Numbered from the stretch's first letter, positions 3,332-38,377 are shown. The stretch is DNA of 39,090 bases from Spirochaetales bacterium (GCA_027314665.1 DAHVAK010000099.1:1-39090); one strand, 5' to 3'. Notes: a model not told the origin generated them from the letters alone. A program made the numbers and translations.

Positions 3332-3359
3332 TTGATAACCGTTCTGAGTGTGATATCAT
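3332..3359 (+). promoter_or_regulatory. Sigma70-type promoter for the lipoprotein operon
   Basis: TTGATA (3332-3337), 16-base spacer, TATCAT (3354-3359), in a locally AT-rich stretch ahead of the lipoprotein gene at 3375. The implied leader is very short, with a G-run (GGGGGGG) as ribosome-binding site. Confidence 0.6.
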
Positions 3360-3374
3360 CATTGCGGGGGGGTT

Positions 3375-5255
3375 ATGCTCGGTCGGGCACTCATTGTTCC
3401 AACCATAATCGGAGCGGCGCTCTTCGTCTCATGCAGCGCCAACAGCCTGCTCTCGCCGCTCGGCGACCAGTCGACCAACCAGGTGACGGTCGGCACGATC
3501 TCGGCCGGGACGATGGTCGGCAGCGGGGACCAGATTCCTCTGGCGCTGAAGTACAACCAGAGCCAGGTGAGCCCCAAGGATCTGAAGGTCGAGCTGCTCG
3601 ATGCCCAGGGGAACGTCATTCAGACCGGGGATCTCAAGGGAATAGACTTCAGCGCTCCGCTTCCCCCGGTTCAGCTCCCCTCCCTGAGCTCGGGCACCTA
3701 CACCCTGCGGCTCACCCTCTACGACGCGAACAATCAGGTCATCACCCAGAAGAGCATCACCTTCTTCTATACCCAGGGGACCTATAGCCTCCAGGGGATC
3801 GCCTCCTATCCGCCGACCCTCGCCCCCGGAGGGGCTGGTCTCCTCTACGCGAGCCTTTCGGTTCCCAGCGGGGCAAATCCCTACCTGCGCTGGACCATGG
3901 GCAGCAAGGTGATCGCCGAGGGCTATCTGCAGGACGGCTACGACAAGGTCCAGTGGACCGCACCGGCGAGCTCCGGGGTGTACTCCGTTACGGTGGAGCT
4001 CTTTCCCTTTGGTCCGGCAGCGGGAGGCGATTTTACCTTCACCTCTCCCTACTCCATGCATGTCGAGATCTTCGTAACGAACGGGGCATCCTCGACCGCC
4101 AAGAATCAGCTCGGGCCCGCGAGCGACTACTACAGCCTCTTCCATTTCGGCGGCGATCTCACCGACTCGAGCCCGCGCGGTCAGAGGCTTCAGCTTGCTG
4201 CCGCGCCGATCGGCAGCCCCCAGCTCGGGGTCAACGGGAGCGTCTTCGGCTATCAGCTGAACGGCTCGGCTGGCTTTCGGATTCCGAACCTGATTCTTCC
4301 CCTTTCCGGCTCGACGCTGGCCCCCTTCTCGATCACGATGCGCTTGCGCCTGGACAGCTTCCAGTTCGGCCGCAACTTCCTAACGGCGACCGCCGACCAG
4401 GGCGGCTTCCAGCTCCAGCTCGCCACCAACGCGAAGGGACGGCTCGCGGCGACGGTTGATTCGGTGAGCGAGAGCGGCTCGGTCGAGATACCGACCGGGC
4501 AGCTGACCACGATCACCCTTTCGGTCATTCCGACCAGCCAAGGCCTGAGCCTCCTCTGGTTCACCGACGGGAACATGGTTCTCGCCGACAGCCTTGACAT
4601 ATCCCCTGCGGTCAACGCCCCGGCGAACGGTGAGACGATCATCGGCGGCACGAACGGATTCGTCGGCCTCATCGACGAGCTCGGAGTCTACTATCGCGAC
4701 GGTTCCGGTCAGGCGAGCGTCGATCCCGAGGTCTTTCGCCGGGCGATGAGCGAGGAGTACGGCAGCAGCCTCGTTTTCGCGGAAGGATTCGACGGGATGC
4801 GCCTTCCCGGCGACCTGAAATACGACTCCTCCACCACCGACGGCGACCTGCAGGCCGGAAGCCTCCTTCTCGGGGCGGGATCGTGGGTCTCGCTGCCGTC
4901 GTTCGGGGTCGGCGAGGACGAGCAGACGCTCGCGATCGCCTTCTCGCAGTTTCCGCCGGGGGCGACCGGCGAGGTCGTCTTCTCTGCCAACGGTCGCGAG
5001 CTCGCCAGCTTCGCGCTTGGAGCCGCCTTCGATGCGAGCCATCCCCTTCGCGTGAGGATCTCGAAGGGTGGGACCGGTCTTGAGATTTCCGAGGGAAACA
5101 TCGTCAAGAAGCTCGACGGCAACCCCGGCGATCTCACGGTGCAGGTTTCGAATACCGGAAAGGTCGATTTCGATCTGCGCAGCTTCTTGATCGTGAAGAG
5201 CGGCTCCCGACTCGGATCGGAGGTGGCGGGCGCGACAAAGGCTTCACACTCCTGA
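3375..5255 (+). CDS. Large lipoprotein with LamG/concanavalin-like domain
   Basis: I do not recognise a named family for this 626-residue protein. It begins with a short signal peptide ending LFVSC, so Cys20 is the likely lipidated residue and the protein sits on a membrane of the envelope. Residues about 60-240 read like two Ig-like/filamin-like beta repeats (SGTYTLRLTLYD, SSGVYSVTVELF). Residues about 250-440 resemble a LamG/concanavalin-A-like lectin fold (SITMRLRLDSFQFGRNFL, TIIGGTNGFVGLIDELGVYYR), and a second similar sheet-rich half follows. It heads a co-directional group with the two envelope genes at 5327 and 6594 and has its own promoter. A role in surface binding or scaffolding is inference only. 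Confidence 0.75.
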   Translation: MLGRALIVPTIIGAALFVSCSANSLLSPLGDQSTNQVTVGTISAGTMVGSGDQIPLALKYNQSQVSPKDLKVELLDAQGNVIQTGDLKGIDFSAPLPPVQLPSLSSGTYTLRLTLYDANNQVITQKSITFFYTQGTYSLQGIASYPPTLAPGGAGLLYASLSVPSGANPYLRWTMGSKVIAEGYLQDGYDKVQWTAPASSGVYSVTVELFPFGPAAGGDFTFTSPYSMHVEIFVTNGASSTAKNQLGPASDYYSLFHFGGDLTDSSPRGQRLQLAAAPIGSPQLGVNGSVFGYQLNGSAGFRIPNLILPLSGSTLAPFSITMRLRLDSFQFGRNFLTATADQGGFQLQLATNAKGRLAATVDSVSESGSVEIPTGQLTTITLSVIPTSQGLSLLWFTDGNMVLADSLDISPAVNAPANGETIIGGTNGFVGLIDELGVYYRDGSGQASVDPEVFRRAMSEEYGSSLVFAEGFDGMRLPGDLKYDSSTTDGDLQAGSLLLGAGSWVSLPSFGVGEDEQTLAIAFSQFPPGATGEVVFSANGRELASFALGAAFDASHPLRVRISKGGTGLEISEGNIVKKLDGNPGDLTVQVSNTGKVDFDLRSFLIVKSGSRLGSEVAGATKASHS

Positions 5256-5326
5256 AAGGGCAGAGAGGTCGTTGCACGCAGTTGCTCATCATGACCGCTG
5301 GGACGTGGGCCCGGCTCGGAGGAGTG

Positions 5327-6610
5327 ATGCGCAGGCTCTGGGTGCTCCCGCTGCTTTTCGTCTGTGCCGGCACGCTCTCCGCCGAGATCCCTTCTGCAAA
5401 GACCACGGTGGCCCTCTTCGGCATCTCGGACCTGCCTCTGCCGGCCCCCGAGCTCCAGACAGTCGACCTTCGCATCGCGGAGGTCTTCGCGAGCTCGAAT
5501 CGGGTGCTCCGCCTGCCCTATCGTCTCACTGCGGGCGACCTTTCCCCCTTCATACAGGCAATGAGCCGAGTCAAGTCTGCGGAGGCGACGATCGCGGGGG
5601 CCGTCGAGATCGGCGGCGAGGCCATACCGGCGGCGGAGCTGCGGCGCATCGCGGCCTCCTCCCTTGCGGTGATACCGGACGTCACGAGCTACCTCCGCGG
5701 CTTTTCGGAAGCGGGCGGCTACAACGCACGGCTGGAAACGAGCTTCACGATCGTCGATCTCTCCACGCTCGCGACCCTCGCGCACATCGCCGTGGAGGCC
5801 TTGGGCACGGGAGTGAGTCCGCAGCGGGCGCTCCGCGAGGCCGCCGACCAGATCCCCATCCAGCTCGCCCTCGAAGGCGGGCCCGGCATCGAATCGATTC
5901 CGGGACCCGTGAGCATCGAGGGAAGCACTGCCCTCATCCGCTTTGGTCGAAAGATGGGAGTTCACGTGGGCGAAAAGTTCGCGGTCCTTTCGACGCGTCT
6001 CTCTCCTTCGGGAGGGGCGGTTTCGCGGCAGACGGGGCTTCTCCTCGTGAGCAGCGTGCGCGAGGACTATTCCTACGCGCGCGTGCTCTATGCCGAGCCG
6101 ATCTTTGGCGTCGGAGATCGGCTGCGGGAGATCCCGCAGATCGGCTTCGAATCCACGGCCTACTTCCACGTCATAGCGAACGCCAACGCAGCGGCGGGGG
6201 CGATCGCGCCTCCTTTGGTCTACAGCGTAGGCACCTATGAGTCGGTAACCCGTGGTTTCTACAACTTTCGTCCGCTCATCGGGATTGAGTCTGCGATTGC
6301 GTCGGCGTTCTATGCCGCCGGAGGGGTGCCGCTCAGTCTCTACCTCGGCGCCGAGCTCAACTGGCGCTTCGGTCGCTTCGCGCTGCGCCCGGTTTTCGCG
6401 GGTGGGGTCGGGGGGATGATTCCCCTTCAGTCCGGGGCAAGCTTCACCCTGACGATGGCTGGCGGCTTCGGCCAGCTTTCCTTGAGCTACCTAATCGGCA
6501 ACAACCTTCGCTTGAGCATCGACGGCGGCTACGTGCAGTGGCTGCCGCTCGTGCCCAACGGGGGATTCGGCGGCTACTACGGAGGAATCGGAATTGGGAT
6601 GGATCTCTAA
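5327..6610 (+). CDS. Secreted CsgG/FlgT-like protein with possible C-terminal beta-barrel
   Basis: A 427-residue exported protein with a cleavable signal peptide (MRRLWVLPLLFVCAGTLSA). Residues about 20-200 look like the CsgG/LpoB-type domain shared by curli-secretion and flagellar FlgT proteins. VSIEGSTALIRFGRKMGVHVGEKFAVL resembles the FlgT C-terminal small barrel. The last 150 residues alternate polar and hydrophobic positions, are rich in Gly and aromatics, and end GGYYGGIGIGMDL, like an outer-membrane barrel. I chose the ATG at 5327 because GGAGGAGTG sits right before it; the TTG at 5282 adds a non-signal extension. Its end overlaps the next gene by 17 bases, indicating coupled translation. 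The family assignment is by motif resemblance, not alignment. Confidence 0.6.
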   Translation: MRRLWVLPLLFVCAGTLSAEIPSAKTTVALFGISDLPLPAPELQTVDLRIAEVFASSNRVLRLPYRLTAGDLSPFIQAMSRVKSAEATIAGAVEIGGEAIPAAELRRIAASSLAVIPDVTSYLRGFSEAGGYNARLETSFTIVDLSTLATLAHIAVEALGTGVSPQRALREAADQIPIQLALEGGPGIESIPGPVSIEGSTALIRFGRKMGVHVGEKFAVLSTRLSPSGGAVSRQTGLLLVSSVREDYSYARVLYAEPIFGVGDRLREIPQIGFESTAYFHVIANANAAAGAIAPPLVYSVGTYESVTRGFYNFRPLIGIESAIASAFYAAGGVPLSLYLGAELNWRFGRFALRPVFAGGVGGMIPLQSGASFTLTMAGGFGQLSLSYLIGNNLRLSIDGGYVQWLPLVPNGGFGGYYGGIGIGMDL

Positions 6611-8129
6611 CGCAACCGGGCGCTTCCGCCGAAACGGCGAAAGGTCTCCCGACGGGCGAGCGCAGGGCTCTCCTGCGGCGCGATTGCTATGGGCCGCTTT
6701 TCTGCTGCTCCCTCTGGCCGCTTGCGCCACCCCCGGCGCCCCCCAGGCCCCTCGCTGGGTTTCCGAACCCCCTTCCGCCACGCAGGAGTTCAGCTACTTC
6801 GTCGGGAGCGGCAGCGGCGCAGGCGGGCAGGAATCGCTCGCCCAGCGCGGCGCCGAGCGCTCGCTCGTTGCCGAGATCGCGCGCTTCGTCGGCGAGGGCC
6901 TGGGGGCAAAATCCACCCCGGCTCAGGCTGAAGAGCTCGCGCGGTACGAGCAGCGGCTCGGCGGGCAGGTCGGGCCGGAGCCGGGGACGCAGGCGCGCGA
7001 TCTTGAGGTGGTCGACCGCTTCGTCCGCAAAGAGGGCGCGAAGGTGACGGTATTCCTTCTCGGACGCTGTTCCACCGCGGCCCTCAAAGAGGAGCTCACT
7101 CGGCTCCGCTCCGGCGAGGGGCAGGAACAGGCGGCGGCGGCGCCCAGGGCTTCGGGGGCGGGGAGCGAGGTCGCGGCGAGCACTCCCTTCGAGGCTGCCA
7201 AGGCCTTCATCGCGGCGGCGGCCGCCGCCGGGGCGTCCGGGGGAGCGGGGGCCGGCCCTCAGATCGAACGGGATCTCGGCAGGGCGCGGGAGGCGATCGA
7301 GGGGATCAAGCTCGAGAAGCTCACGGGCGCTTTGAGCGGGCTCATCCGGCATCCGCTCCCGGAAGCCTTCAAGCTGCGCGTTATGACCTCCGGCGGCAGC
7401 CCCCTCCCGGAGGCGGCAATCCGCGCCTCCTACACGACCGCGCAGCCGGATGGAACCCTCGCGACGGCGGTCGAGCATCTGCGCAGCGACGAGTCGGGGA
7501 TGGTCCTCCTCGAGCTGCCGCCGCTCAGCTTCGTCGGACCGGGAACGGTCACGATGGCGCTCGATCTTCAGGGCGAGCTCGCCTCCCTCGGGAGCCTCGG
7601 CGCCGAGTACCGGCCGCTCGCGGCGCAGCTCGACCGGGCCGCTCAAGAGAAGAGCGTGGAGTTCAGCTACTCCGCTACCTCGCAATCGGCGGCAATCCGC
7701 ACCGGCGTTCTCATCGTCGATCTCGATGGGAGCGGCAATTTCATCTGGGGGGACGCGACTACCTCCGGAGTAGTGGAGGCCCTGGCCCCGCTCGGCTTCA
7801 GGCTCACCACGGTGCCGGGAAACCCCTCGGTTGCGGGAATCGACGATCCGGACCTTCTCATGATCGTCCGAAACAACTTCGGCGGGCAGTTTACCCGCGT
7901 CATCCTCGGGCAGGCCGTCATCTCCAGCTTCCGGCAGGAGGCTGGGGGAGGCTACCGCGTCGAGGTGTCCGGGAAGCTCAGGGTAGCCGATCTCGCGACG
8001 GGAAAGGTCCTCGCTACGGCAAGCAGGGTCGCCGCGGGGAAGGGAACGAACGCGATGGGGGCCGTCACTGCGGCTTTTCGGGATCTCGGCGCTCGGCTCG
8101 GGATCGAGATCGCGAACCTCCTTCCGTGA
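6594..8129 (+). CDS. LPP20/FlgP-like outer-membrane lipoprotein
   Basis: A 511-residue lipoprotein. The signal region contains LLWAAFLLLPLAAC, making Cys44 the likely lipid site. PRWVSEPPSATQEFSYFVGSGSG followed by an ERSLVAEIARFVG helix is the LPP20/FlgP pattern. The C-terminal part (AVISSFRQEAGGGYRVEVSGKLRVADLATGKVLA, then GKGTNAMGAVTAAFRDLGARLGIEI) resembles the same or the related FlgT-type domain. The TTG at 6594 is chosen because GGAGGAATCGGAA precedes it and it lies inside the previous gene. The alternative TTG at 6684 has no ribosome-binding site. An Ala/Gly-rich linker lies near 180-220. It probably works with the preceding FlgT-like protein at the outer membrane; a flagellar role is not shown, since no other flagellar gene is nearby. 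Confidence 0.6.
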   Translation: MGWISNATGRFRRNGERSPDGRAQGSPAARLLWAAFLLLPLAACATPGAPQAPRWVSEPPSATQEFSYFVGSGSGAGGQESLAQRGAERSLVAEIARFVGEGLGAKSTPAQAEELARYEQRLGGQVGPEPGTQARDLEVVDRFVRKEGAKVTVFLLGRCSTAALKEELTRLRSGEGQEQAAAAPRASGAGSEVAASTPFEAAKAFIAAAAAAGASGGAGAGPQIERDLGRAREAIEGIKLEKLTGALSGLIRHPLPEAFKLRVMTSGGSPLPEAAIRASYTTAQPDGTLATAVEHLRSDESGMVLLELPPLSFVGPGTVTMALDLQGELASLGSLGAEYRPLAAQLDRAAQEKSVEFSYSATSQSAAIRTGVLIVDLDGSGNFIWGDATTSGVVEALAPLGFRLTTVPGNPSVAGIDDPDLLMIVRNNFGGQFTRVILGQAVISSFRQEAGGGYRVEVSGKLRVADLATGKVLATASRVAAGKGTNAMGAVTAAFRDLGARLGIEIANLLP

Positions 8130-8892
8130 GCGCAAGGAGGGGCGCCGGATCATTCGAGATCAGCCCCGCGACGCCGCGCTCGAGCAGGCGCTCGGCGGTC
8201 TCCGGCTCGTCCACGGTCCACGTGATGACCGGGTAGCCGAGCACTCGCTGGTTGAGGAACATCCCCATCGGGGTGACCTTCCGAAAGTCCGGCTTCAGGA
8301 TCGGACAGCCGGAGATGAAGCGCCCCTCCCCGTGGCGGAGAAAGGGGAGAACCTCCCGGTCGCTGGAGTAGATGATGGCGGTCGGAATCTCGGGGGCGAG
8401 ACGCCGCGCGGCACGGATTGCGTAGGGGTTGAAGGAAGAGATGAGGCAGCGACGCGCGAGCCTCCTGCCGCGAATCAATCCCACCAGCTCCTGCGCGAGG
8501 CCGTCATCCTCCCGCAGGCGGCTTTTTATCTCGATGTCGTAGTAGACCGTGTCCGCGAGCGCGTCGAAGAGCTCGGAGAGCAGGGGCAGCCGCTCGCCGC
8601 GGAAGCGCTCGCCGAACCAGGCCCCGGCGTCGAGGGATTTCAGGGTAGCGATGTCGCACTCCTCGACAAGGAGATCCTCGCCGGTGATGCGCTTCAGGTT
8701 GAAATCGTGCACGACGACGAGCTCGCCTGAGCGGGCGCGGTGGACATCGAGCTCGACTCCGGGGATCGAGGCCGACCGGGCCGCGGCGAAGGCGGCGAGG
8801 GTGTTTTCGGGGGCGCGTTTGGCGTAGCCGCGGTGAGCGAAGAGCAGGGGCAGCTGCGCATCGAGGTGGGCCGAGAGCTGTTCGGGCCTCAC
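8065..8892 (-). CDS. Glycerophosphodiester phosphodiesterase
   Basis: Hydrolyses glycerophosphodiesters, such as deacylated phospholipid head groups, to glycerol-3-phosphate and an alcohol. The 275-residue product has the GDPD catalytic set: AHRGYAKRAPENTLAAF, VELDVHRARSGELVVVHD and YYDIEIKSR, and ends with ITWTVDEPETAERLLERGVAGLISNDP. There is no signal peptide, so it is the cytoplasmic (UgpQ-like) type. It starts with a GTG overlapping the stop of the upstream PspA-like gene by four bases (GTGA), so the two are translationally coupled. Its 3' end runs 65 bases into the convergent lipoprotein gene. Confidence 0.92.
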   Translation of the reverse strand: MRPEQLSAHLDAQLPLLFAHRGYAKRAPENTLAAFAAARSASIPGVELDVHRARSGELVVVHDFNLKRITGEDLLVEECDIATLKSLDAGAWFGERFRGERLPLLSELFDALADTVYYDIEIKSRLREDDGLAQELVGLIRGRRLARRCLISSFNPYAIRAARRLAPEIPTAIIYSSDREVLPFLRHGEGRFISGCPILKPDFRKVTPMGMFLNQRVLGYPVITWTVDEPETAERLLERGVAGLISNDPAPLLALTEGGSRSRSRAERRDPEKPQ

Positions 8893-9338
8893 GTCCCTTC
8901 GTCCTGCCTCTTTTTCAGATCGTCGAGCGCCCAGTCGGCCTCGGCGCTGCGGAACTTCTCGTCGATCTCCGCGTGCTCGCCGACCACCATCTCCATTTGG
9001 GCGAGGAGGAGATCCGCATCGACCCCGCTCAAGCGGGGCCGCGTCTCCATGCTCTTCAGCTGCACGACCATGCGGGCGATCCCGTCGCGATACTCCTGTT
9101 CTTCGCCCTTGAGCTTCGCGATCTGCGGGGAGAGCTCGTCGGCCTTCGCCTGGGCGCCGCTCGCGAGGTCAGGCCTTCCCTTTTCGGTTGCGAGCCGGAC
9201 GCGCGAGAGCCAACTCTCGGACTCCTTCTCTATCTGGATCCGCTTCGCGGTGGTCGTCTTCAGGGTCGTCATGACGGCCGTGACGTACTCGCGGGCGGAT
9301 TCGGGCTCGAGCCCGAGGATGTTGTAGTCGTCTGACAT
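8889..9338 (-). CDS. PspA-like short coiled-coil protein
   Basis: A 149-residue, highly charged, almost wholly helical protein without signal peptide or membrane segment. SWLSRVRLATEKGRPDLASGAQAKADELSPQIAKLKGEEQEYRDGIARMVVQLKSME follows the PspA/IM30 pattern (basic helix, small-acidic 'G-x-DLA' step, long coiled coil), but the protein is much shorter than PspA and lacks its amphipathic N-terminal helix. The ATG follows GGGAGGATGAGCC. It overlaps the GDPD gene, which points to phospholipid or membrane-stress work, though this is inference. It could equally be an unrelated coiled-coil protein. Confidence 0.6.
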   Translation of the reverse strand: MSDDYNILGLEPESAREYVTAVMTTLKTTTAKRIQIEKESESWLSRVRLATEKGRPDLASGAQAKADELSPQIAKLKGEEQEYRDGIARMVVQLKSMETRPRLSGVDADLLLAQMEMVVGEHAEIDEKFRSAEADWALDDLKKRQDEGT

Positions 9339-9421
9339 GGCTCATCCTCCCTCATGCGAAGTATAGTCCCAAGGCTGCCGGTTGAAAAGGAGCGCCCTCG
9401 TTCGCGCAGCTCGTGCGATCA

Positions 9422-9450
9422 TTGCACAAGCGATCGATTCCCGTTATCGT
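9422..9450 (+). promoter_or_regulatory. Weak candidate promoter for mnmE
   Basis: TTGCAC (9422-9427), 17 bases, TATCGT (9445-9450), then eight bases to the mnmE ATG at 9459. Fits a leaderless or near-leaderless start, in line with the lack of a Shine-Dalgarno sequence there. Both boxes are only partial matches. Confidence 0.3.
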
Positions 9451-9458
9451 CCGATCTC

Positions 9459-10823
9459 ATGAATGAGCTTGCCTACGAACTGGATGAGCCGATTGCGGCG
9501 CTCGCCACTCCCTGGGGCGAAAGCGCTCTGGCGGTGATCCGCACCTCAGGGGCAGGATCCATCGAGCGGGTGGCGCAGCTCTTCTCGCGTCCAGAGGCCG
9601 TGCGAGCCGCCTCGGGCAGCACACTCGTCCTCGGGGAGATTCTCGACCGAGCGCACGGGAGCCCGATCGATCAGGTGATGCTTGCCGTCTATCGCGAGCC
9701 GAGAAGCTACACGGGGCAGGACGGGATCGAGCTCTTCTGCCACGGAAATCCCCGCGGGATCGATGCGATTCTGGCCGCCCTGAAGGCGAACGGCTTTCGT
9801 GCTGCTGAGCCAGGCGAGTTCACCCTTCGCGCCTTTCTCAACAAGAAGATGGACCTGACGCGAGCGGAGGCAGTGCAGGAGATCGTCCGCGCGAAGACGC
9901 GCGAGGCGCACAGCCTTGCCCTGCATCGCCTCTCGGGAGCGATCGAGGCCCGGATCAACCGGGCGAAGGCGGGGCTCCTCCGGCTCATGACCGCGATCGA
10001 GATCCAGCTCGACTACCCTGAGGATGAGGTCGCGGGCGATCTCGATGCCTCCCTGCCCGAGCTTGCCGCAATCCGCAGCGAGCTCGCCGCCCTTGCCGCC
10101 ACCTACCGAACCGGGCGCCTCTACCAGGAGGGGGTGCGGGTCGCTCTCTGCGGCAAGACCAACGCCGGGAAATCCTCGCTCTTCAACTATCTGCTCCGTG
10201 AGGAGCGCTCGATCGTCTCGGAGCTGCACGGAACGACGCGGGACTATATCGAGTCGCTCGTAACGATCGAAGGGCTTCCGGTTCTCCTTTTCGATACGGC
10301 GGGCCTGCGAAGCGCCGAGAATCCGGTCGAGGTCGAGGGGATCAGGCGAAGCGAGCGGATCATCGAGAGCGCCGATCTGCTCCTCTACATCGTGGATGGG
10401 ACCCTCGGGCTGACGGCGGAGGATGAGGGCTTTCTCTCCTCGCATCCGGCAGGCGCCCTCATCGGACTTTGGAACAAGACGGATGCGGGCGCCGCCGAGC
10501 CTCCCGCGGGCTTTCTCCCGGTGAGCGCAGCTACGGGCGCCGGGCTTTCAGAGCTCGTCCGCGAGATCAGGCGTCGAGCCGTCGGAGAGGGGGTCGCTCC
10601 GGCAGGAGAAGCGGTCATCGACTCCGCCCGCCAGAAGGAGCTGCTCGAGCGCTGCATCGAGGCGCTTGCCCAGGTCAAGAAGGGGATCGCTGCCGGAATG
10701 CCCGCCGACGCGGTGGCCCTCGATCTGCGGGAAGCGCTCGACGCCCTGGGGGAGATCACCGGAGAGGTGACGACCGCGGACATCCTCAATCAGATGTTTG
10801 CCGGTTTCTGCGTGGGAAAGTAG
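9459..10823 (+). CDS. mnmE: tRNA modification GTPase MnmE
   Basis: With MnmG it builds the 5-aminomethyl/carboxymethylaminomethyl group on wobble uridine 34 of certain tRNAs. The 454-residue product has the folate-binding N-terminal domain (IAALATPWGESALAVIRTSG), the helical domain, and an inserted G domain. Its G1 motif is GKTNAGKSS near 232-240, followed by the switch motif DTAGLR and NKTD for guanine. The C-terminal FCVGK carries the catalytic cysteine. The ATG at 9459 fits the family start; the extension in the ORF track does not. No clear ribosome-binding site precedes it. Its partner mnmG is about 25 kb away in this window. Confidence 0.97.
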   Translation: MNELAYELDEPIAALATPWGESALAVIRTSGAGSIERVAQLFSRPEAVRAASGSTLVLGEILDRAHGSPIDQVMLAVYREPRSYTGQDGIELFCHGNPRGIDAILAALKANGFRAAEPGEFTLRAFLNKKMDLTRAEAVQEIVRAKTREAHSLALHRLSGAIEARINRAKAGLLRLMTAIEIQLDYPEDEVAGDLDASLPELAAIRSELAALAATYRTGRLYQEGVRVALCGKTNAGKSSLFNYLLREERSIVSELHGTTRDYIESLVTIEGLPVLLFDTAGLRSAENPVEVEGIRRSERIIESADLLLYIVDGTLGLTAEDEGFLSSHPAGALIGLWNKTDAGAAEPPAGFLPVSAATGAGLSELVREIRRRAVGEGVAPAGEAVIDSARQKELLERCIEALAQVKKGIAAGMPADAVALDLREALDALGEITGEVTTADILNQMFAGFCVGK

Positions 10824-36352: not shown

Positions 36353-38377
36353 GTGGATTTCGACGCAATCGTCATCGGCGGCGGGCACGCGGGGATCGAG
36401 GCCGCCCTTGCCCTCCCGAGGCTCGGCTTCAGCACCCTCCTCATCACCCAGAGCATCGACACGATCGGCAGGCTCTCCTGCAATCCAGCCGTGGGCGGGC
36501 TTTCGAAGGGGAACATCGTGCGCGAAATCGATGCCCTCGGCGGGGAGATGGGTAGGCTCATCGACGCGAGCATGATCCAGTACCGGATGCTCAACAAGAG
36601 CCGGGGACCTGCGGTGCAGGCCCCGCGCGCCCAGGCGGACAAGTTTCTCTATTCGCGTCTCGCGAAGCAGCGCCTCGAGGAGCAGAAGGGGCTCCACCTT
36701 TTCCAGGACACAGTGGTGGATTTCATGCTCGACTCTTCGGGAGCGAGGATCGAAGGAGTGGTGACCGAGCGGCGGCGGCGCTTCACCGCGCGGACGGTGG
36801 TGCTCACCACCGGCACCTTCATGGACGGGAAGCTTTTCATCGGGGAGTGGAGCGCGCCCGGCGGTCGCCTCTCCGAGCCGGCGGCGATGGGGCTGGGGGC
36901 GCGGCTGCGGGAGCTGGGCTTCTCGGTCGGACGCCTGAAGACCGGAACCCCGCCGCGGGTTGCACGCTCGACCGTGGACTTCGGCAGGATGGAGGAGCAG
37001 CCCGGCGACGAGCTGATCGTCCCCTTCTCCTTTCGGAATGCGCGGGTCGACCGCCCACAGGTCTCCTGCTACATCACCCACACGACCGAGGAGACTCACT
37101 GCGTCATCCGCGAGAATCTCCATCGCTCGCCCCTCTACTCGGGCAAGATCGTGGGGCGAGGTCCGCGCTACTGCCCCTCGATCGAGGATAAGGTCGTGCG
37201 CTTCCCGAGCCGAGGCAGCCACCAGCTCTTCGTGGAGCCGGAAGGCCTCGAGTCGGAAGAGATGTACCTGAACGGGATCTCCTCCTCGCTTCCCGAGGAG
37301 GTGCAGCTCGCTGTGCTCAAGACCATCCCCGGGCTCGAGCATGCCGAGATGGTGCGCCCGGGCTACGCCGTGGAGTACGACTTCATGGATCCCCGCCAGC
37401 TCTTCCCCAGCCTGATGTCGAAGCGGATCGAGGGGCTCTTCGTCGCGGGTCAGACCAACGGAACCTCCGGCTACGAGGAGGCAGGCTGCCAGGGGATCGT
37501 GGCGGGAATCAACGCCGCCCGCTACCTCCAGGGCAACGAGCCGGTCATCCTCTCGCGCGCGGAGTCCTATGCCGGAGTGCTCATCGACGATCTGGTCACC
37601 CTCGGCACCGAGGAACCCTACCGGATGTTCACCTCGCGCGCAGAGTATCGCCTATGCCTGCGGCACGACACCGCGGATGTGCGCCTGCTCGAGAAGGGCT
37701 TCGGGATCGGCCTACAGCACCGGGAGGACATGGATCGCCTGGAGGCGAAGAAGCGCGGAATCGAAGAGGTGAAGGAGCTCCTACGCAGGCGGCGCCTGCG
37801 CGAAGCGGATGTGAGCGCGGCCGCCGCCGCTTTGGCGGACGGAGCCGGGGCCTCTGTCGAGCTCCACCTCGTCGCTCCCGACGCGGGCGCCGAAGGCGCG
37901 GAGGAGGCCGAGCCCCCGCTCGCCGAGGGCGCTTCGGACGAAGTGGAGGGCTTCGAGGCCCCGAGCGCCGCGGAGCTTCCGCTTTCTGCCCGCCTTGCGC
38001 GGCACCTCGGAAAGAGCCTCGATCAGCTCCTGAAGACCCAGGAGTTTTCGCTCGCGGAGCTCGGCTCCCTCGAGCCCGGGCTTGCCGGCTGGACCCCGGA
38101 GATCCTCCACTTCGCCGAGCTCGACATCCGCTATGAGGGCTACATCGCGCGCCAGGAAAAGCAGATCCACCGCTTCCGCAAGATGGAGCGGGTGCGCATC
38201 CCTGCCGACTTCGACTACGACGCGATCACGGGTCTTTCCAACGAGGCGCGTGAGAAGTTCAAGCTGATTCGTCCGCTCTCGGTCGGCCAGGCCTCGCGCA
38301 TCTCGGGGGTCCGCTCTGCCGATGTCGCCATCCTCCTCGTCCTCCTTGACCGGGAGAGCCGGAATGGGGCTGCTTGA
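36353..38377 (+). CDS. mnmG: tRNA uridine 5-carboxymethylaminomethyl enzyme MnmG
   Basis: FAD-dependent partner of MnmE in wobble-uridine modification. The 674-residue product starts [20 protein letters not shown] (FAD-binding motif), and has [94 protein letters not shown] and [12 protein letters not shown]. The C-terminal domain ends [38 protein letters not shown]. It is about 45-50 residues longer than usual because of an Ala/Glu-rich, probably disordered insert near 480-545 in the helical tRNA-binding part. It begins with GTG without a ribosome-binding site, and overlaps rsmG at the 3' end. Confidence 0.97.

Follow-up and report, generated by a model that had tools for sequence, protein, structure and literature searches.

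A conserved spirochaete operon encoding a FlgT-type protein with a predicted outer-membrane barrel and LPP20-type lipoproteins

Here, we describe a widely conserved operon of Spirochaetia in which a FlgT-type protein with a predicted fused outer-membrane barrel is encoded together with LPP20-type lipoproteins, and we propose, with a probability of roughly one in two, that its products form a conserved outer-membrane-anchored ring or collar of spirochaetes, most likely serving the envelope, rather than the flagellum, as a scaffold or export gate. The proposal is built on gene order, domain types and conservation, together with a barrel and FlgT/PelC folds obtained by structure prediction. The building-block domains are already known, but the operon itself is undescribed, and the open-licence literature searched yielded no account of a FlgT/LPP20 module in spirochaetes. 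The locus lies in a stretch of 39,090 nucleotides (hereafter the window), from contig C146 of a 3.64-Mb spirochaete assembly in 299 contigs (91% complete, 6.4% contaminated; G000 below).

Three co-directional genes, A, B and C, occupy positions 3375-8129 of the plus strand (Table 1); these genes, the promoter-like site before them and the B/C overlap were all recovered as the initial annotation had described them. The promoter-like site, 15 nt upstream of A, was the single sigma-70-like site found in 5.1 kb, against 0.3 expected from shuffles. The listed reading frame of B (5282-6610) opens at a TTG, and the family alignment begins at about codon 5327, an ATG with GGAGGAG upstream; ATG 5327, rather than TTG 5282, is the best start of the gene, and the precursor read from there is 427 aa long and lacks a lipobox, its signal peptide being of the cleavable type. 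Gene C starts at TTG 6594, inside the last codons of B, or a little downstream, with GGAGG at 6581-6585, and its lipobox cysteine (C23) is invariant. Upstream lie genes for an M20 peptidase (pepT-like) and alr, and downstream a GDPD gene in reverse orientation, a gene for a PspA-like protein of 149 aa, and mnmE. The initial description of the module as lying away from flagellar genes agrees with our scan of the window proteins, among which none was recognised; neither pel nor csg genes were recognised in the flanks examined, and PADLOC defence models gave no match. The 149-aa protein (8892-9338, minus strand, between GDPD and mnmE) resembles PspA/IM30 with an E-value of 1.9e-5, below cut-off, and similar-sized ORFs occupy its position in many relatives. 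In the window, mnmE (9354-10823) and mnmG (36353-38377) are some 25 kb apart, the genes of the insert between them (10823-36353) including those for LarA-like racemases, an ADH, an SDR, an amidohydrolase and an FtsX-like permease; in fetched relatives the apparent mnmE/mnmG homologues are adjacent (ORFs of ~455 and 620 aa).

Table 1. Features of the module in the window, and genes at the position of B in aflagellate families.
Feature	Position	Strand	Description
Promoter-like site	3332..3359	+	Sigma-70-type TTGATA-16-TATCAT, extended -10 (TG); consensus match alone
Gene A	3375..5255	+	626-aa lipoprotein; lipobox Cys20, Cys codon 3432-3434
A, N-terminal part			Ig/E-set-like
A, LamG-like segment	~4314-4697	+	LamG_3 E 3.4e-5, below Pfam cut-off
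Gene B	5327..6610	+	FlgT-like protein with predicted fused barrel; start from family alignment
B, CsgG/TolB-N/FlgT-middle-like domain	5408..5875	+	Alpha/beta; model residues 27-182
B, FlgT_C-like domain	5906..6133	+	Model residues 193-268
B, predicted outer-membrane beta-barrel	6146..6604	+	Eight long antiparallel strands, residues 273-425, pLDDT mostly >90
B/C overlap	6594..6610	+	17 nt; relatives carry X and often Y at this place
Gene C	6594..8129	+	LPP20-type lipoprotein; lipid Cys codon 6723-6725
C, LPP20/SHS2-like domain	6789..7154	+	Model residues 45-166
C, Ig-like beta domain	7305..7562	+	Model residues 217-302
C, PelC/CsgG/FlgT-like C-terminal domain	7653..8120	+	Alpha/beta; model residues 333-488
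B-position genes, aflagellate families	L093:4136-5323, L094:4274-5476, L098:7599-8978, L099:4251-5366

Homologues in the same order, at 25-37% protein identity, occur in dozens of spirochaete genomes, so the module is not a chance grouping. The relatives compared comprised 40 fetched stretches and 61 loci of genome records, all labelled as spirochaetes, and the standard gene order across Spirochaetia is A-B-X-(Y)-C, the genes being closely spaced (median gaps 13-56 nt over the 61 loci); ABXYC was counted 16 times, ABXC 11, BXYC 10 and XYC 9, the other arrangements being truncated or rearranged. Used alone as a query, B found matches in 59 and C in 70 of 118 Spirochaetia genomes, over which B co-occurs with X (p 1e-14) and X with C (p 3e-13; both uncorrected for phylogeny). 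A lipobox is carried by the majority of A, X, Y and C proteins and by few B proteins. The two additional genes encode lipoproteins: X, of ~450 aa, joins an LPP20/FlgP-like N-terminal part to a DUF6175-like part (matched in 13 of 23 members, best E 4.9e-8), and Y, of ~225 aa, has an LPP20-type domain in common with C (hhalign probability 97.8). The profile of X against PDB sequences gave a weak lead to the 52-chain lipoprotein 9YEC (E 0.056), and hhalign detected no signal between B and X.

The "pair" of FlgT- and FlgP-like genes named in the initial annotation is present, but is the remnant of this larger operon, which that annotation had missed. Neither X nor Y stands between B and C in the window or was found elsewhere in its assembly (best E for Y 0.015), and a second genome of the window's genus (G001) has A-B and lacks X and C; therefore, X and Y were lost in this genus and the window is a reduced form of the operon. 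Since X is also missing from G001, an assembly artefact is unlikely for X. No stop codon or frame break suggesting decay was seen in A, B or C of the window, and in this genus A-B-C may either function in reduced form or be decaying. Among cultured spirochaetes, loci of the set were located in Treponema putidum and Rectinema subterraneum. In the record of T. putidum OMZ 758 (L160:8466-11979), however, X appears as two separate ORFs and so does C, both genes being intact in the related G024 and G044, and one relative has gene A broken in two (L118:5568-7511; also L063).

The window's own B and C sequences matched nothing in Pfam, NCBIfam or the PDB; their assignments rest on family members and predicted folds. 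B was modelled (pLDDT 84.7) from a 44-row alignment drawn entirely from the window and the fetched loci, and is predicted to run from a CsgG/FlgT-like domain through a FlgT_C-like domain to an outer-membrane barrel of eight strands; the model begins with the CsgG-like domain right after the signal peptide, and the SHS2-type FlgT_N is absent. Against the PDB, the top Foldseek match was FlgT (3W1E, E 1.2e-10), followed by FlgT from the Vibrio LPHT ring (8Z5N, 2.4e-10), with later matches to outer-membrane barrels, including OprF-N (4RLC) and OmpA (1BXW), to CsgG (4UV2) and to PelC (5T0Z); these E-values apply to parts, whole-chain TM-scores being low for the B and C models because the chains are multi-domain. 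Both the CsgG/FlgT-like character and the barrel end that had been suggested for this protein appear in the model, which adds the FlgT_C-like domain. Pfam FlgT_C was matched by 15 of 20 B family members (best E 6.9e-5), the window's B itself remaining unmatched. PF03783 (CsgG) gave no match to the module's proteins in the window or to B and C family members, and searching PDB sequences with profiles of B, C and X gave chance-level matches, with weak leads only for C and X. In other classes of Spirochaetota, outside Spirochaetia, B-like proteins cover residues 5-295 of the model and then have a different end.

C was modelled (pLDDT 88.5) as an LPP20-like domain, a helical hairpin, an Ig-like domain, a helical linker and an alpha/beta domain, in that order, so that structure prediction returned both kinds of fold on which the initial annotation stood, the CsgG/FlgT-like and the LPP20-like. 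Its description of C as LPP20/FlgP-like holds for the N-terminal third, but the remainder, Ig-like and PelC/CsgG-like, makes C something other than a plain FlgP. Pfam LPP20 was matched by 13 of 21 C family members (best E 4.3e-5), and the C profile gave a weak lead to Lpp20 (5OK8, E 0.09). The LPP20 domain carries a 34-residue insert at the position of the FlgP ring hairpin, constant in length in 50 of 50 members and modelled as a lower-confidence helix (residues 88-104, pLDDT ~65-79) where FlgP has a beta-hairpin. The C-terminal domain found fold matches in PelBC (9H80, E 3.1e-7), FlgT (8Z5N, 9.1e-7), CsgG (4UV2, 2.1e-6) and GNA1162 (4HRV, 1.7e-5), and in HpaA too, and hhalign connected the CsgG-like domain of B with that of C only faintly, at their ends (P 5e-4, probability 31).

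With PelC of the PelBC exopolysaccharide transporter, followed by CsgG, as the best match of C, and with a lectin-like lipoprotein in the same operon, the module could be read as an export channel, with C as a funnel-shaped ring at the outer membrane and B assisting the passage of a polysaccharide, or of lipoprotein A, across it. We consider this quite unlikely, as the flanks examined contained no recognisable synthase, PelB-like or curlin-like gene and the eight-stranded barrel of B is OmpA-like. An OmpA-like eight-stranded barrel has no conducting pore. A itself had been annotated as a LamG-like lipoprotein: its lipobox bears out the second half of that name, while the match to Pfam Laminin_G_3 falls short of the gathering score (24.5 against 27.6 bits), and LamG was matched in 4 of 17 A family members (E up to 0.1).

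In the outer-membrane ring or collar that we favour, the barrel of B would insert in the outer membrane and fix the FlgT-type platform to its inner face, with the FlgT-type domains (CsgG-like and FlgT_C) hanging into the periplasm. Lipid-anchored C may pack around or on B through its LPP20/SHS2 and PelC/CsgG-like domains; domains of both kinds are known to oligomerise in ring complexes. Where relatives carry X and Y, as most do, these could contribute further LPP20-type subunits oligomerising around B. A would be a lectin-like partner lipoprotein that may reach the surface, and together these proteins would serve as a collar or gate of the envelope. The membrane topology, ring formation, interactions and function proposed here are inferred. 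FlgP, FlgT and Lpp20 have a common SHS2 fold, and ring formation in this family accompanies a beta-hairpin insert (PMC12222027). Several observations count against the ring reading: (i) PelC/CsgG-like domains are also found in non-ring proteins, HpaA being among the fold matches of C, (ii) the window's set, if functional, does without X and Y, and G001 has only A-B, and (iii) C has an insert at the hairpin position, but it is modelled, at lower confidence, as a helix. A ring-less set for outer-membrane maintenance or tethering, with adhesive lipoprotein modules holding the envelope together, would accommodate the presence of CsgG/TolB-N and LPP20 domains in the non-ring lipoproteins HpaA and Lpp20 (PMC12222027), as well as the subsets A-B, A-C and X-Y-C that stand alone in some genomes, which is odd for one obligate machine. 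Nevertheless, the strong co-occurrence of B, X and C and the ring-type folds in B and C alike speak against such a set, and we regard it as very unlikely.

FlgT- and FlgP-type proteins are known as add-ons of external flagella. Among the 118 Spirochaetia genomes, fliF was found in 97, including G000, and flhA added G088, G095 and, by a partial match, G082, which gave a flagellated set of 100 genomes (fliF or flhA) and an aflagellate set of 18 in families f3, f4, f9 and f17. At presence thresholds of our choosing (B 1e-20, X 1e-15, C 1e-30), the phylogenetic profile against flagellar genes that the initial annotation had proposed was mixed: strong B matches occurred in 58 of 100 flagellated versus 0 of 18 aflagellate genomes (p 1.8e-6; family level p 0.017), whereas X (50/100 versus 6/18, p 0.21) and C (62/100 versus 11/18, p 1.0) were also retained in aflagellate families, X in f3, f4 and f17 and C in all four. 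At the thresholds used, 26 fliF-positive genomes, including the Borrelia-like family f19 (identity inferred), lack B, X and C, and a Treponema pallidum-like genome (G076, identity inferred) lacks B, X and a full-length C, matching C weakly and only over its C-terminal part. A core flagellar role of the module is therefore unlikely, since X and C are kept in families without flagella and motile Borrelia-like and T. pallidum-like spirochaetes do without B, X and full-length C; the absence of these from many flagellated lineages likewise indicates that periplasmic flagella can turn without the module.

A role as a flagellar accessory in particular lineages is kept in play by the confinement of recognisable B to flagellated genomes, which we count against the non-flagellar reading, and by the co-occurrence of B with FlgH. 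Such an accessory would be an H-ring-like collar coupling or shielding the outer membrane over turning periplasmic flagella, and it accords with FlgT being the closest fold to B and with the presence of B in 20 of 21 flagellated genomes with FlgH versus 38 of 79 without (p 4.5e-5). However, beyond the retention of X and C in aflagellate families and the fliF-positive genomes that lack all three genes, no flagellar gene was recognised near the module, the link to FlgH is not significant at family level (p 0.11), the single FlgH locus examined (G001, L168:4774-5547) adjoins genes for a sugar-binding protein and a RibD-like protein with no recognised flagellar neighbour, and FlgH was not found in G000, which has B and fliF; we judge the accessory role unlikely. 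The premise of the initial annotation that spirochaetes need no outer-membrane ring is too simple, as an FlgH-family protein is present in 21 of 118 genomes (G001, G006, G013, G025 and 17 others). FlgH in spirochaetes may have a non-flagellar use, or some spirochaetes may have an outer ring.

G088 was considered as the sole exception to a strictly flagellar B and rejected: it has FlhA, so every strong B match is in a flagellated genome. The idea of a strictly flagellar B is itself weakened by B-like genes in corresponding position in aflagellate f3, f4 and f9, where a signal-peptide protein of 370-460 aa occupies the place of B, before X or C (Table 1). By eye, these proteins have a FlgT_C-like stretch and barrel-like C-terminal strands, and they are candidates for a divergent B, with hhalign against B not significant (best P 0.0016, probability 16).

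The barrel-anchored FlgT-type protein and the LPP20 lipoproteins are conserved where flagella stay periplasmic, and the LPP20 partners persist without flagella. A more far-reaching and tentative possibility is that Spirochaetia possess a flagellum-independent outer-membrane ring machine, its barrel-fused FlgT, LPP20 and PelC-like subunits being kin to the flagellar H-ring and basal-disk proteins; these flagellar rings would then have been recruited from a general envelope ring or share an ancestor with one. Should a ring form, a machine of the spirochaete outer membrane has gone unnoticed, and the question of where flagellar outer rings came from can be put to the test.

Compared to known systems, the module combines familiar parts in a different arrangement. 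The Neisseria lipoprotein GNA1162 (4HRV) shares its ring-type fold with the C-terminal domain of C, but it is a single-domain lipoprotein whose chain has no FlgT_C, barrel or LPP20 domain. PelC of the PelBC exporter (9H80, 5T0Z) and CsgG of the curli pore (4UV2) resemble the C-terminal domain of C and the N-terminal domain of B in fold; yet no pel operon context was recognised around the module, which also has neither a PF03783 match nor csg genes, and B is modelled with a barrel of its own in place of the shared 36-strand barrel of the nonameric CsgG pore. With FlgP/Lpp20 of the Campylobacter flagellar basal disk, C (as also X and Y) shares the lipoprotein nature and an N-terminal LPP20-type domain, and it carries an insert at the ring-forming position; C is, however, about three times longer, adding Ig-like and PelC/CsgG-like domains to what in FlgP is an SHS2 domain only, and the insert is a helix in the model versus the beta-hairpin of FlgP (PMC12222027). 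The flgP operon of H. pylori includes an extra lipoprotein required for the outer-membrane barrier (PMC11756786), and in the Vibrio H-ring FlgO, FlgP and FlgT surround the L-ring (PMC6375700). FlgT of the H-ring/LPHT ring (3W1E, 8Z5N) has, as B does, a CsgG-like middle domain followed by a FlgT_C-like domain. In contrast to FlgT, B lacks FlgT_N and is flanked not by flgO/flgP but by the pepT-like M20 peptidase, alr, GDPD and mnmE genes, and where FlgT is periplasmic and has no barrel, B is predicted to end in an eight-stranded one.
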